Made by a program: the position numbers and the translations under genes. DNA of 64,000 bases from Paraglaciecola sp. L3A3 (GTDB taxonomy: Bacteria; Pseudomonadota; Gammaproteobacteria; Enterobacterales; Alteromonadaceae): the NCBI RefSeq assembly GCF_009796765.1, contig NZ_CP047023.1:3083501-3147500 (forward strand), read 5' to 3'. This document shows, in pieces, positions 42,643 through 57,151 of the stretch. Numbering within the stretch: position 1 is the stretch's first letter; the number at the start of each line of letters is the position of its first letter. The notes under the pieces are model-generated. The model was given only the letters and a program-made list of their open reading frames with translations. It ran no database searches and had not been told where the DNA came from.

Positions 42643-42670
42643 AACAGTTTTTTTAATTAAAAAAACTGTT
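42643..42670. repeat. 28-bp perfect palindrome before the tRNA promoter
   Basis: The left 14 bases AACAGTTTTTTTAA are mirrored exactly by the right 14. The final TT is also the first two bases of the -35 hexamer of the tRNA promoter. It could terminate the bPH2 operon on either strand (A- and T-rich stem) and supply an A/T-rich upstream element to the promoter. Confidence 0.7.
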
Positions 42671-42697
42671 GACGACTAAATACTAGATCAGCATAAT
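42669..42697 (+). promoter_or_regulatory. tRNA operon promoter with GC-rich discriminator
   Basis: TTGACG (42669-42674), a 17-bp spacer and CATAAT (42692-42697) are followed by ACGCGCC. A GC-rich discriminator of this kind is typical of stringently controlled stable-RNA promoters. The first tRNA begins 32 bases downstream. Confidence 0.85.
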
Positions 42698-42729: not shown

Positions 42730-42806
42730 GGCTACATAGCTCAGCTGGTTAGAGCACATCACTCATAATGATGGGGTCCCAGGTTCAAATCCCGGTGTAG
42801 CCACCA
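42730..42806 (+). tRNA. tRNA-Met (CAT), elongator
   Basis: A complete 77-nt cloverleaf with encoded CCA. The acceptor arms GGCTACA/TGTAGCC pair, and the anticodon loop is CTCATAA. It is close to the E. coli elongator tRNA-Met and lacks the initiator-type unpaired first base. Confidence 0.96.
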
Positions 42807-42834: not shown

Positions 42835-42919
42835 GCGGGAGTGGTGGAATTGGTAGACACGCTGGATTTAGGTTCCAGTGCTTCACGGCGTGAGAGTTCG
42901 AGTCTCTCCTTCCGCACCA
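42835..42919 (+). tRNA. tRNA-Leu (TAG)
   Basis: An 85-nt class II tRNA with a long variable arm (GTGCTTCACGGCGTG region) and encoded CCA. The anticodon loop TTTAGGT gives anticodon TAG, reading CUA/CUG-type leucine codons. Confidence 0.95.
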
Positions 42920-42923
42920 TTGT

Positions 42924-42998
42924 TGGGGTATAGCCAAGTGGTAAGGCAGCGGGTTTTGATCCCGCCATTCGTTGGTTCAAGTCCAGCTACCCCAGCCA
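42924..42998 (+). tRNA. tRNA-Gln (TTG), copy 1
   Basis: A 75-nt tRNA with TGGGGTA/TACCCCA acceptor arms and anticodon loop TTTTGAT, giving anticodon TTG. It ends in GCCA and lies four bases after tRNA-Leu in the same transcript. Confidence 0.96.
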
Positions 42999-43076
42999 TT
43001 ATTTTTTAGTAAATTGTTTAATTGACAATTTATTATATAAATAAACGGCTGTTTATTTATAGTACACCTGTTTTAT

Positions 43077-43151
43077 TGGGGTATAGCCAAGTGGTAAGGC
43101 AGCGGGTTTTGATCCCGCCATTCGTTGGTTCAAGTCCAGCTACCCCAGCCA
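43077..43151 (+). tRNA. tRNA-Gln (TTG), copy 2
   Basis: Sequence identical to copy 1 over its 75 bases. Its 3' half plus the terminator that follows is the probable parent of the 82-bp tandem array downstream. Confidence 0.96.
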
Positions 43152-43161
43152 AACACCAATT

Positions 43162-43188
43162 AAGCCTGCTTTTACAGCAGGCTTTTTT
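43162..43188 (+). terminator. Terminator of the tRNA operon
   Basis: A 9-bp stem (43162-43170 with 43176-43184) followed by a T-run lies 10 bases after the second tRNA-Gln. The same arrangement, with an altered stem, recurs in each repeat unit downstream. Confidence 0.88.
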
Positions 43189-43804
43189 GATCACGGCATC
43201 TATACGTTGGTTCAAATCCAGCTATCCTAACCCATCAGCAAATTAACCCAGCTTTATAATAAGCTTTTTTGATCACGGCATCTATACGTTGGTTCAAATC
43301 CAGCTATCCTAACCCATCAGCAAATTAACCCAGCTTTATAACAAGCTTTTTTGATCCCGGCATCTATGCGTTGGTTCAAATCCAACTATCCTAACCCATC
43401 AGCAAATTAACCCAGCTTTATAACAAGCTTTTTTGATCCCGGCATCTATGCGTTGGTTCAAATCCAACTATCCTAACCCATCAGCAAATTAACCCAGCTT
43501 TATAACAAGCTTTTTTGATCCCGGCATCTATGCCTTGGTTCAAATCCAACTATCCTAACCCATCAGCAAATTAACCCAGCTTTATAACATGCTTTTTTGA
43601 TCCCGGCATCTATGCGTTGGTTCAAATCCAACTATCCTAACCCATCAGCAAATTAACCCAGCTTTATAACAAGCTTTTTTGATCCCGGCATCTATACGTT
43701 GGTTCAAATCCAGCTATCCTAACCCATCAGCAAATTAACCCAGCTTTATAACAAGCTTTTTTGATCCCAGCATCAATGCGTTGGTTCAATTCCAACTATC
43801 CCAG
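43189..43804 (+). repeat. Tandem array of eight 82-bp units derived from tRNA-Gln 3' half
   Basis: Units begin at 43189, 43271, 43353, 43435, 43517, 43599, 43681 and 43763, exactly 82 bp apart; the last is cut at about 42 bases. Each starts with GATCCCGGCATC (the anticodon-stem side of tRNA-Gln). Each then carries GTTGGTTCAAATCCAAC, a well-paired T-arm, then a degraded acceptor end and a terminator-like hairpin AGCTT/AAGCT with a T-run. The 5' half of the tRNA, including the anticodon, is absent, so no functional tRNA is encoded. This array fills most of the 763-bp gap before the AGCS gene; 43805-43914 shows only the ribosome binding site of that gene. Confidence 0.92.
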
Positions 43805-43914
43805 CGATAAACGAAAAAATCCATTTATGGATAGCACTAGACATAAAAGCCTGAAAACGGCAGACTTCTTATACTCAACATCATCAACACCACCATATAA
43901 TCATAGGATTTATT

Positions 43915-47143: not shown

Positions 47144-47320
47144 TTAGCCTGTGTAATGCATGATGAGTTGAATAACAACTGAAATCACTAATAAGGGTAA
47201 GATCCAACGACCAAACTTACTCATTTGTTGATTGGACAAATTAAAATTAGCTCGCTCAATTAATGGCACTAGTACCACTAGAGCAATAAATAATACACCT
47301 AAGATAAGCAATACCGTCAT
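47144..47320 (-). CDS. Small two-span membrane protein coupled to ubiF
   Basis: A 58-residue protein, MTVLLILGVLFIALVVLVPL at its start, with two hydrophobic segments (about 2-20 and 39-54) joined by a polar loop. Its ATG overlaps the ubiF stop codon by one base (TAATG), which supports real, coupled translation. I do not recognise a family. The position suggests a link to quinone or membrane metabolism, but this is only inferred from coupling. Confidence 0.6.
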   Translation of the reverse strand: MTVLLILGVLFIALVVLVPLIERANFNLSNQQMSKFGRWILPLLVISVVIQLIMHYTG

Positions 47321-48507
47321 TACACTAATCCCATAGCATACTTTAATGCTTGTTTTTTTAGCGGGCCTGAACTGTTAGCTAATTTTAAACCTAAATTTCT
47401 GAGTAATGATAAAGGAGTATTATCGTTGCTAAAAATGGCATAAAGGCTATCCATAGCTGTCATCATAATTAAATTATCCGTGCGACGATCTTTCTCGTAG
47501 GCATTTAACCAGAGCTGTCGATTAGTATCCGTTAATGCCTGTGAACGGCCATGCACTCTAACACAGCTTGCTAATTGGGTAAGCAACGACCCAACATCCT
47601 TAAAACCTAAATTCACTCCCTGCCCAGCTAATGGGTTGATAGTATGCGCCGCATCTCCGATCAACACACTGTTATGTTTATAATATTGATTAGCGTGCAT
47701 TCTAGTTAGACCAAAACTGGCTGTTGATAACACCTCAAAATCTACTAATTCGTCAGGAAAAACCTGAATGATTTGTTGTTTAAGTTTTTCATTTGATAAG
47801 GTTTTTAACCACTTAATATTTTTCACACTGTTATACCAAACTAACGAACCATATCCGTCATACAAGGGTAAAAAAGCCAGAGGACCATTAGCGGTAAATT
47901 GTTGCCAAGTGATATCTTGACTAGCAATATCCGTTTTAATAGTAATGCCTAATGCCTGTTGCGCATATTGCCATCCTTGCACACCAATATTACTTGCCTG
48001 TCGAACCTTAGAATTACCACCATCAGCTCCGATGATAATTTTGCTATCGATCTGTTGACCATCAGCAAGTATCAACTGAGTTTGACCTTTAGGGTTAATT
48101 GATACTAAAGGTTGATTCCAAAAACAACGGATATTACCCACCTCAGCTATAGCTTGGTGTAGTCCTAATTGAATAATTCGGTTCTCAACAATATGGCCTA
48201 AATGACTGGTGCCTACTGAGTGACAATCAAAATCAGTGCGACAAGTACTTTTATTCCATACTGATAAACGTTTGTATTCACACAGCCTCATTTTCTCGAT
48301 AAAAGACCATGCACCAAGATCCGTGAGTAATTTTTCTGAAGTTAAACTAATAGCAGAGACTCGCATGTCTGGAGCTTGAGAAGCAGAAAAATCAGCAGGT
48401 TTGTTCGTTTCGATTAAGGCAACATCAAAACCCATCGCTCCCAATCCTAAGGCAATAGCCGAACCTACCATTCCTCCACCTACTACACAAAAATCAAACA
48501 AACTCAT
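47320..48507 (-). CDS. ubiF: 2-octaprenyl-3-methyl-6-methoxy-1,4-benzoquinol hydroxylase
   Basis: This 395-residue flavoprotein monooxygenase is of the UbiH/UbiF/UbiI family. The FAD loop is VVGGGMVGSAIALGLG, with a central IIGADGGNSKVRQ and the late GDAAHTINPLAGQGVNLG. WQQFTANGPLAFLPL and the ending LKKQALKYAMGLV are closest to E. coli UbiF. It adds a ring hydroxyl in ubiquinone synthesis at the inner membrane. Followed by the coupled 58-residue membrane protein. Confidence 0.9.
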   Translation of the reverse strand: MSLFDFCVVGGGMVGSAIALGLGAMGFDVALIETNKPADFSASQAPDMRVSAISLTSEKLLTDLGAWSFIEKMRLCEYKRLSVWNKSTCRTDFDCHSVGTSHLGHIVENRIIQLGLHQAIAEVGNIRCFWNQPLVSINPKGQTQLILADGQQIDSKIIIGADGGNSKVRQASNIGVQGWQYAQQALGITIKTDIASQDITWQQFTANGPLAFLPLYDGYGSLVWYNSVKNIKWLKTLSNEKLKQQIIQVFPDELVDFEVLSTASFGLTRMHANQYYKHNSVLIGDAAHTINPLAGQGVNLGFKDVGSLLTQLASCVRVHGRSQALTDTNRQLWLNAYEKDRRTDNLIMMTAMDSLYAIFSNDNTPLSLLRNLGLKLANSSGPLKKQALKYAMGLV

Positions 48508-55274: not shown

Positions 55275-57071
55275 ATGCATAAACCACAGTCACACATCCA
55301 CTATCAAGTGAAAGTACTCTCAATTGCAGGACATATTCTCCAAGTTAAATTAACTATAGATAAGCCTGAAAAATCAGGACAAATACTCTCTTTACCCGCT
55401 TGGATCCCAGGTAGTTACATGATCCGAGACTTTGCCAAAAATATTATCACACTTAATGCAGAAGATGATTATGGGCAACAAATAATCATTAATAAACTAG
55501 ATAAACAAAGCTGGCAACTAGCGTCCTGCCCCACAAGAATACATGTTTATTATCAGGTTTATGCTTTCGATTTATCTGTCAGAGGTGCCTACGTCAATGA
55601 CGAATATGCTTTTTTTAATGGTACCAATATGTTTTTAGCTGTTGAAGGCCAAACGGATCAACCATCTTCCATAGAACTCATTAAACCAGAAGATAATGCA
55701 CTAGGCCACTGGCAAGTTGCCACAACTATGCCATCTACCCAGCCTTTATCCCATTCATTTGGAGAATATTGGGCGAAAAATTATGATGAACTCATTGACC
55801 ATCCCGTATTATTGGGTGAGTTTAATACCATCAAATTTAATACATCTGGGGTAGAATTTGAACTTATTTTAGCTGGCGGTCATCAAGCAGATACTCAACG
55901 TTTAAAACAAGATCTAACTAAAGTCTGTAAGCATCAAATTGGATTCTTTAATGACAATCCGCCCATTACACATTATCAATTTATTACCCTGTTAACTGAT
56001 AATGCTTTTGGTGGCTTAGAACATATAAGTTCGACAGCCTTAATGTTTAGTCGTAAAGATTTACCCAGTCCTTATCAAAAACAAAAAATGACTGATGGAT
56101 ACCAATTATTTCTCAGCCTGTGTAGTCATGAGTTTCTTCATACCTGGCATGTGAAACGAATTAAACCAGAGGCTTTATTTGCGGCAACATTAGATAGCGA
56201 AAAATATACCGAACAATTATGGATTTACGAAGGTTTTACCAGTTATTACGACGATTTATCTCTATTACGCTCTGGTTTAGTCACAGAGGCTGAATACTTA
56301 AAAGTAATGGCGAAAAATCTCACTCGTTTAGTCCGTAACCAAGGTCGGCTTAAACAAAGTATTACCGAATCTAGCTTTGATGCTTGGACCAAGTTTTATA
56401 AACAAGACGAAGGGGCCATTAATAATATTGTCAGTTATTACAATAAAGGTGCAGTGCTCGCTATGTGTTTGGATTTGAGCATTCGCTTAGGCAGTGATCA
56501 AAAATCTAGCTTAGATGATGTTATGCGCTATTTGTGGCAGGCTCATGGCAAAACTAATATCCCCACTAACAACCAGGTCATAGATAAAATATTAAAAGAA
56601 CAACTGGGGCTCGATCTCAGTGAGTTTTTGTCTTCGGCTTTATATTCTACTGCTGAATTACCTTTCGAAAACCTATTAAATAAGTACGGAGTAAAAGTCA
56701 ATTACAGCGCTAAAGCCAGTATTGATGATAAAGGGGGGGACACTAACAGCGAACCTTTCTTATTTGATTTTGGCGCCCAAGTCACTGATAAAGAAGTAGG
56801 TGTTGTCATTAATCAAGTGACCGAACACAGCAGTGCTTATAAAGCTGGACTACAAGTAGGTGATGTACTGATTGCACTGAATAATTGGCAAGTTAGTAAA
56901 ACAGAGATAAAACATATTCTAAATAACTTAAGAGTAGAACAAACTGTAGAGTTAATCGTATTAAGAGATAAGAAAGTGAAAAAACTGATATTTACAGTCA
57001 ACCCCGTGATAACAGATTCAATTTCGTTAAAAATCTTTGACCAAGAGTTAGCTTCGAGTTGGTTAAAATAA
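55275..57071 (+). CDS. M61-family glycyl aminopeptidase with PDZ domain
   Basis: This 598-residue metallopeptidase has an N-terminal beta domain, the catalytic HEFLHTWHVKR with zinc ligands His285 and His289 and general base Glu286, and the third ligand in WIYEGFTSYYDDL. A PDZ domain closes the protein (about 505-585: VGVVINQVTEHSSAYKAG). No signal peptide is visible, so it is probably cytosolic. Family members remove N-terminal glycine or small residues. Confidence 0.93.
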   Translation: MHKPQSHIHYQVKVLSIAGHILQVKLTIDKPEKSGQILSLPAWIPGSYMIRDFAKNIITLNAEDDYGQQIIINKLDKQSWQLASCPTRIHVYYQVYAFDLSVRGAYVNDEYAFFNGTNMFLAVEGQTDQPSSIELIKPEDNALGHWQVATTMPSTQPLSHSFGEYWAKNYDELIDHPVLLGEFNTIKFNTSGVEFELILAGGHQADTQRLKQDLTKVCKHQIGFFNDNPPITHYQFITLLTDNAFGGLEHISSTALMFSRKDLPSPYQKQKMTDGYQLFLSLCSHEFLHTWHVKRIKPEALFAATLDSEKYTEQLWIYEGFTSYYDDLSLLRSGLVTEAEYLKVMAKNLTRLVRNQGRLKQSITESSFDAWTKFYKQDEGAINNIVSYYNKGAVLAMCLDLSIRLGSDQKSSLDDVMRYLWQAHGKTNIPTNNQVIDKILKEQLGLDLSEFLSSALYSTAELPFENLLNKYGVKVNYSAKASIDDKGGDTNSEPFLFDFGAQVTDKEVGVVINQVTEHSSAYKAGLQVGDVLIALNNWQVSKTEIKHILNNLRVEQTVELIVLRDKKVKKLIFTVNPVITDSISLKIFDQELASSWLK

Positions 57072-57098
57072 TGCTAGATGCTAGATGCTAGATGCTAG
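57071..57098 (+). repeat. Short tandem repeat ATGCTAG x4
   Basis: Four copies of a 7-bp unit start on the last base of the M61 stop codon. This is a likely slippage product of no clear function. Confidence 0.8.
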
Positions 57099-57151
57099 AA
57101 AAGTTAAAAGCTTAACTTATTATATCCAACCTTATTATTTTCATCGCGCAT

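Follow-up and report, generated by a model that had tools for sequence, protein, structure and literature searches.

Tandem copies of a tRNA-Gln 3' half behind a tRNA operon of Paraglaciecola, probably an amplified pseudogene

tRNA-linked repeats and the array behind tRNA-Gln

The closest known kind of repeat to the one described here is the tRNA-linked repeat (TLR) of Escherichia coli. An excerpt of PMC8144298, from which our account of this family is taken, counts 22 TLRs at ten loci (citing Rudd 1999), names as their hallmark 18-19 bp copied from the 3' end of the RNA gene lying upstream, and places the tyrT repeats among them. It gives the function of the family as not known, an early claim concerning tyrT having been withdrawn, and why each TLR closes with the adjacent tRNA's 3' end reproduced exactly is, as far as the excerpt goes, unsettled. 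Three rRNA-linked members are transcribed between two terminators; the RNAs rrA, rrB and rrF lie between the rRNA terminators T1 and T2, with binding to Hfq and CsrA reported, and recognition by RNase E has been proposed for the rRNA-linked members (same excerpt of PMC8144298). In E. coli K-12 we found the tyrT repeats to be 178 bp long, in 3.1 copies, each ending in the 3' end of tRNA-Tyr, which bears out the parallel drawn in the original prediction, an earlier reading of the present DNA made from its letters.

The DNA analysed is a 64,000-nucleotide stretch of the genome of Paraglaciecola sp. L3A3 (the window), in which a tandem array follows the second of two tRNA-Gln(UUG) genes (Table 1). 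The array is confirmed as real: TRF returned a single array at 43123-43801 (period 82, 8.3 copies, 94% matches, 0% indels, score 1153), and the T-arm motif of the second tRNA-Gln is followed by eight further occurrences at exact 82-bp steps, the number and spacing that had been predicted. In its own genome (a single contig of 5,308,776 bases) the array is present once; elsewhere it gave only short matches at tRNA-Gln genes, a further one of which lies at 3049148.

Each unit starts with an anticodon loop fused to a terminator T-run and ends in a tRNA 3' end, the order being hairpin-bearing spacer, TTTTTTGATC, CGGCATCTATGC, T-arm and 3' strand of the acceptor. The TTTTGATC of the UUG anticodon loop abuts the T-run directly, and the 49-nt core exceeds the corresponding 45 nt of the tRNA by four extra nucleotides between the anticodon loop and the T-arm. 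This agrees with the predicted origin from a tRNA-Gln 3' half plus its terminator; the further claim that the units lack the anticodon half is right for the 5' half, which is absent, and wrong for the 3' part of the anticodon loop, the retained TTTTGATC. ARAGORN and Rfam found no full tRNA fold in the units, Rfam reported the tRNAs alone at gathering score, and Rfam gave no RtT match in 43000-43900 at E values up to 5. CCAAC replaces CCAGC in five of the eight units (3, 4, 5, 6 and 8), turning a G-U into an A-U pair as had been noted; unit 5 additionally loses its first T-stem pair (CTTGG). Over the last 19 nt unit 8 comes nearest to the tRNA end, again as predicted, with four mismatches against five or six in the other units, and over 28 positions the units show four to seven differences from their own live tRNA. 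The seven inner spacers are near-identical, with a weak hairpin common to all, and the edge unit 8 is divergent.

Terminator-like hairpins had been predicted for every unit. The first, which precedes all units, is indeed a strong terminator; the stems of the seven that follow are weak, at -1.2 to -4.1 kcal/mol, and none of these is in the output of the terminator scan, so that all units of the window lie downstream of a strong terminator. Elsewhere in the window there is a perfect 7-bp tandem repeat, ATGCTAG, in 4.1 copies at 57071-57099.

Table 1. Features of the tRNA operon and of the array behind it, in window positions
Feature	Position	Strand	Basis or remark
Promoter-like site TTGACG-17-CATAAT, upstream of the tRNA operon	42669..42697	+	Consensus scan, 10/12; frequency no higher than in regional shuffles
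tRNA-Met(CAU)	42730..42806	+	ARAGORN, Rfam
tRNA-Leu(UAG)	42835..42919	+	ARAGORN, Rfam
tRNA-Gln(UUG), first copy	42924..42998	+	ARAGORN, Rfam
tRNA-Gln(UUG), second copy; 3' half of the type from which the units derive	43077..43151	+	ARAGORN, Rfam
Strong terminator before every unit	43162..43190	+	Terminator scan; hairpin 43162-43184, 9-bp stem plus T-run, about -13.4 kcal/mol
Unit 1 core: TTTTGATC, extra variable-region nt, T-arm, acceptor 3' strand	43185..43233	+	
First of seven inter-unit spacers, weak (decayed) terminator hairpin	43234..43266	+	
Unit 2 core	43267..43315	+	
Unit 3 core	43349..43397	+	
Unit 4 core	43431..43479	+	
Unit 5 core, first T-stem pair broken	43513..43561	+	
Unit 6 core	43595..43643	+	
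Unit 7 core	43677..43725	+	
Unit 8 core, divergent edge unit	43759..43807	+	

Like TLRs, as the excerpt portrays them, the repeats stand directly behind an RNA gene, here in a tRNA operon, and end in a copy of that RNA's 3' end; TLRs number one to five per locus and have no settled function. The two differ in that the repeated piece here is an entire 3' half, taken from the anticodon loop on, with a period of about 80 bp, against only 18-19 bp in E. coli, and in that the window units are imperfect at the tRNA end (4-6 mismatches in 19), none of the eight being identical over its last 18-19 bp. As the array resembles TLRs in anatomy but fails the strict hallmark, we leave it outside the family; several congener arrays would pass. 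The tyrT/tyrV repeats with rttR (RtT) are likewise tandem, lie downstream of a tRNA and each end in a tRNA 3' end, whereas their 178-bp unit, 3.1 copies and sequence set them apart. With rrA, rrB and rrF, as described in the same excerpt, the array shares an inter-terminator sequence holding a 3'-end copy of the upstream RNA; those members, however, are reported as transcribed, whereas transcription of the window array is conjectural.

Distribution in Paraglaciecola and in other genera

We examined the tRNA-Gln loci of 22 Paraglaciecola genomes. Two loci are relevant. One lies before prs, the other before the ORF next to the window array, which looks like a sodium:alanine/glycine-type symporter; both gene names are assigned from the protein letters. 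Units or remnants were present at one or both loci in 11 genomes (G000, G001, G003, G009 as a remnant, G011, G014, G016, G017, G019, G020 in decayed form, and G021), and copy number, earlier put forward as worth comparing among relatives, ranges from 0 to 8 units per locus. In a midpoint-rooted tree of 600 bp of prs a single clade of 12 (support 100/98) takes in all 11 carriers, and units were seen in none of the ten genomes of the sister clade. In G013, which belongs to the carrier clade, no unit was seen; absence in this genome and in G004 is incomplete because their contigs break at a tRNA-Gln. Successive copies lie 76-83 bp apart in 33 cases and 114-115 bp apart in G017b and G019d, whose units contain a full terminator further upstream. 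The last 19 nt are identical to the usual tRNA-Gln end in 17 of 33 congener units among those listed, and 21 of the 41 units outside G020 have 0-2 differences in 28. The prs-linked tRNA-Gln of G001 (L044:297-342) looks aberrant, with a short variable loop, a GCTGG T-stem and a CCATCC end.

A covariance-model search of the 22 congeners (150 candidates scored per genome) gave no convincing copy outside the tRNA-Gln loci among the matches listed. A mobile unit was considered and rejected, the remaining listed matches in these genomes all having E > 0.001. The array had also been proposed as a possible integration hot spot, and gene order lends this no support: the next ORF of the window is symporter-like, and in G013 (L229, G013:C33), which is without that ORF here, tRNA and terminator are followed by the genes that lie beyond it in the window, with no integrase.

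The locus before prs has decayed in G020 (L228, G020:C97:8600-10900). ARAGORN found no tRNA within 2.3 kb before prs; a wreck of tRNA-Gln stands there with three units downstream, wreck and units alike showing 7-9 mismatches in 28 to the tRNA-Gln 3' end of a congener, and two tRNA-Gln genes are retained about 5 kb away on the same contig (L024). Such decay would also follow if a function required a live, transcribed operon. The window units, 4-7 of 28 off a live tRNA, come near to these values; having a live tRNA beside it is thus not enough to hold every array close to the tRNA sequence. T-arm decay in other genomes, which the original prediction held to speak for an inert repeat expansion, is seen in G020, in G001 and in the G009 remnant, and it also affects some array edges: in Ferrimonas sediminicola the T-stem is mispaired in three of four end units.

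The arrangement recurs in other genera. F. sediminicola carries four units with intact terminators downstream of its last tRNA-Gln, and the unit pattern matches 6 of the 14 genomes of Ferrimonas (genus g54, taken as that of F. sediminicola from unit letters and spacing in G470); in G468 of this genus the stretch before the unit consists of N, which hides any neighbouring tRNA-Gln. In family f25 at least 5 of the 75 genomes scanned have units (G374, G442, G410, G059 and G301, three of them found through the scan pattern), G301 with three pseudo-tRNA-Gln units 115-116 bp apart (L166:1498-1780). Junctions at a terminator T-run recur in both groups. In the window's own family the scan pattern, which is blind to the other Paraglaciecola unit type, matched 2 of 395 genomes, both Paraglaciecola.

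Order-wide, the pattern GCTTTTTTGATCNCGGCATC with two mismatches allowed matched 92 of 394 genomes; among 50 loci taken from these matches (L101-L150, some overlapping), only those of G000, G374, G421, G404 and G059 adjoin a tRNA-Gln. CGGCAT stands at the equivalent place in tRNA-Gln of f6 g20 and in E. coli glnX, so that sharing GGCATC means less than was first thought, and the matches of this type in f6 (48 of 152 genomes, the places in G040 coinciding with full tRNA-Gln matches) are, judged by their letters, mostly true tRNAs. The R2 model, run on the 394 genomes, scores true tRNA-Gln nearly as high as units and is therefore unsuited to counting them. Plasmid and phage searches gave no place with 80% query coverage, the 40 matches listed covering 10-13% at the tRNA end of the query, and the exact unit pattern had no match in a collection of genome contigs from which our own genome was perhaps excluded. 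With the unit model, E. coli K-12 yielded tRNA-Gln genes only and no unit downstream of glnX. That gene adjoins ubiF, and the window has at 47320-48507 an ORF that we take to be ubiF-like, so that the two are probably the same locus. No account of arrays of this sort outside E. coli was found in the open-licence literature among the matches listed.

Pairing and divergence of the units

The original prediction read preserved T-arm pairing as a sign of function. Our T-stem alignment held 30 of the 41 genus units, leaving out the window's eight, two of G003 and one broken unit of G021. Nine distinct changes were counted, four of which (44%) keep pairing against 20-40% expected, which does not uphold that reading; nine changes are too few for a bias towards kept pairing to be distinguished. 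The covariation check proposed with it divides by level. Within the genus 92% of cells are paired against 91.9% in shuffles of the 30 units, and no covariation beyond shuffles was detected; across genera 89.6% are paired against 74.1%, which is expected if the units of each genus resemble their own tRNA.

The unit diverges more than the spacer in all three pairs compared (10.0 v 3.3%, 26.5 v 16.1% and 18.4 v 9.4%), two of the pairs setting side by side the final units that precede one shared gene in two species and the third picked by spacer likeness and hence biased. Within arrays, 33 of 65 pairs have spacers less than 75% identical (mean 0.60; shuffled 0.45), and the cores of these 33 are 0.87-0.88 identical, in tRNA-like and tRNA-unlike parts alike. 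Cores that stay alike despite differing spacers point to homogenisation among units too, or to constraint: the likeness would be explained by units recombining with each other and with the tRNA; selection on interior units could conceivably also produce it. One T-loop letter tracks the host tRNA, being A in 13 of 13 units of A-hosts (eight of them the window's) and G in 22 of 28 units of G-hosts, rows that are not independent of each other; this points towards recombination with the tRNA.

An extra hairpin in the interval between anticodon loop and T-arm has 11 double-changed cells at two pairs, a level reached by 2 of 500 shuffles, but a control slid by +3 is 95% paired and has an equal covariation score. 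Across genera, with differing letters, pairing of the hairpin reaches 79.8%, compared with 52.8% in shuffles that take no account of relatedness. A long hairpin joining spacer and tRNA half, suggested by RNAfold for single units of several genomes, was rejected: it is 71.5% paired on 30 units, and 304 of 500 shuffles were as high. It exceeds its slid versions (16.8-51.1%), and its covariation score was reached by 29 of 500 shuffles. RNAalifold gave no consensus structure on 34 units.

Origin of the array and competing explanations

The array probably arose by tandem amplification of a tRNA-Gln pseudogene together with homogenisation, most likely with no dedicated function. A degenerate extra copy of tRNA-Gln, reduced to its 3' half, would have come to lie behind the operon terminator, and pseudogene and terminator would then have been amplified in tandem via slippage or unequal recombination. 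The likely slippage point is the unit boundary, at which the terminator T-run joins the UUG anticodon loop at its TTTT. tRNA-Lys(UUU), which has the same TTTT loop, was predicted to show such junctions and did so in 0 of 394 genomes, which counts against this account of the slippage. Interior units may recombine with each other and with live tRNA-Gln genes and so stay alike, gene conversion being the presumed homogenising force, and edge units and an array beside a dead tRNA would drift. The near-identity of the seven inner spacers, their weak hairpin included, would mean that amplification came after the decay of that hairpin. The T-stem changes, the divergence of units beyond that of spacers, the decay in G020 and the units elsewhere with 0-2 mismatches suggest decay without function, and from these we infer that function is absent; the case for a function of the array is weak.

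It is conceivable, if doubtful, that leaky terminators let transcription run on through the units and that processing at the tRNA-like 3' ends then gives small RNAs, as reported for rrA, rrB and rrF of E. coli. Ferrimonas and f25 do show the terminator-unit-terminator layout again, cores of one array stay alike despite differing spacers, the extra hairpin has both-side changes at two pairs and more pairing across genera than its shuffles, and RNAs of the rrA/rrB/rrF type are reported to bind Hfq and CsrA (excerpt of PMC8144298). Yet a strong terminator precedes all window units, pairing-preserving changes are not clearly in excess in the T-stem, the compared unit/spacer pairs reveal no constraint on the unit, and the support from the extra hairpin is reduced by its slid control, which scores equally, and by shuffles that ignore relatedness. 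Unlikely, in our estimate, is that the interior units form a fast-evolving family of read-through sRNAs, composed of the tRNA-Gln 3' half and a variable-arm-like hairpin, kept tRNA-like for tRNA-processing enzymes and lost with the parent tRNA; if this were true, such enzymes would cut or bind the sRNA-like units via their host-like T-arm and 3' end.

Repeated terminators could also secure the termination of a strong tRNA operon, with the tRNA half as a hitch-hiker, and hairpins of about -11 to -12 kcal/mol are indeed repeated in F. sediminicola and G374. We hold this to be quite improbable, as hairpins after the first have little stability in the window and in G003 (-1.1 to -4.1), and the 36 nt before the T-run in the other congeners fold at 0 to -6.8 in the listed units, with the single exception of G019d (-11.6). 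The stretch from anticodon loop to 3' end is one known placement of attachment sites in tRNA genes, and the units span it as relics of integrative elements using the tRNA-Gln 3' half would; the 76-83 bp spacing in 33 short steps leaves elements no room, no integrase-like ORF is seen by eye beside the array, and G013 has conserved next genes, so that such an origin appears very improbable indeed. Short tandem repeats are liable to mis-counting in assembly, but an artefact is scarcely credible in a single-contig genome with non-identical units and with arrays in the genomes of other species.

The genus offers a natural series, from a live tRNA with near-exact units through drifting units to a dead tRNA with decayed units, and this series lets the origin of the TLR hallmark be tested, recombination with the tRNA gene against function.

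Partial tRNA copies also occur in other forms. Photobacterium phosphoreum has tRNA clusters with pseudogenes. In F. sediminicola an additional pseudo-tRNA-Gln lies between two tRNA-Gln genes (L089:2538-2618), its anticodon arm paired and its loop reading TTTTAAT (anticodon-like UUA), not TTTTGAT. The G301 units retain a piece of the 5' half (GCAGCGGG) and are perhaps an intermediate form. The same operon of F. sediminicola contains, by eye, an apparent pseudo-tRNA-Met (L089:2045-2121) that has lost its 5' part and kept its 3' half, so the pattern may extend beyond tRNA-Gln.
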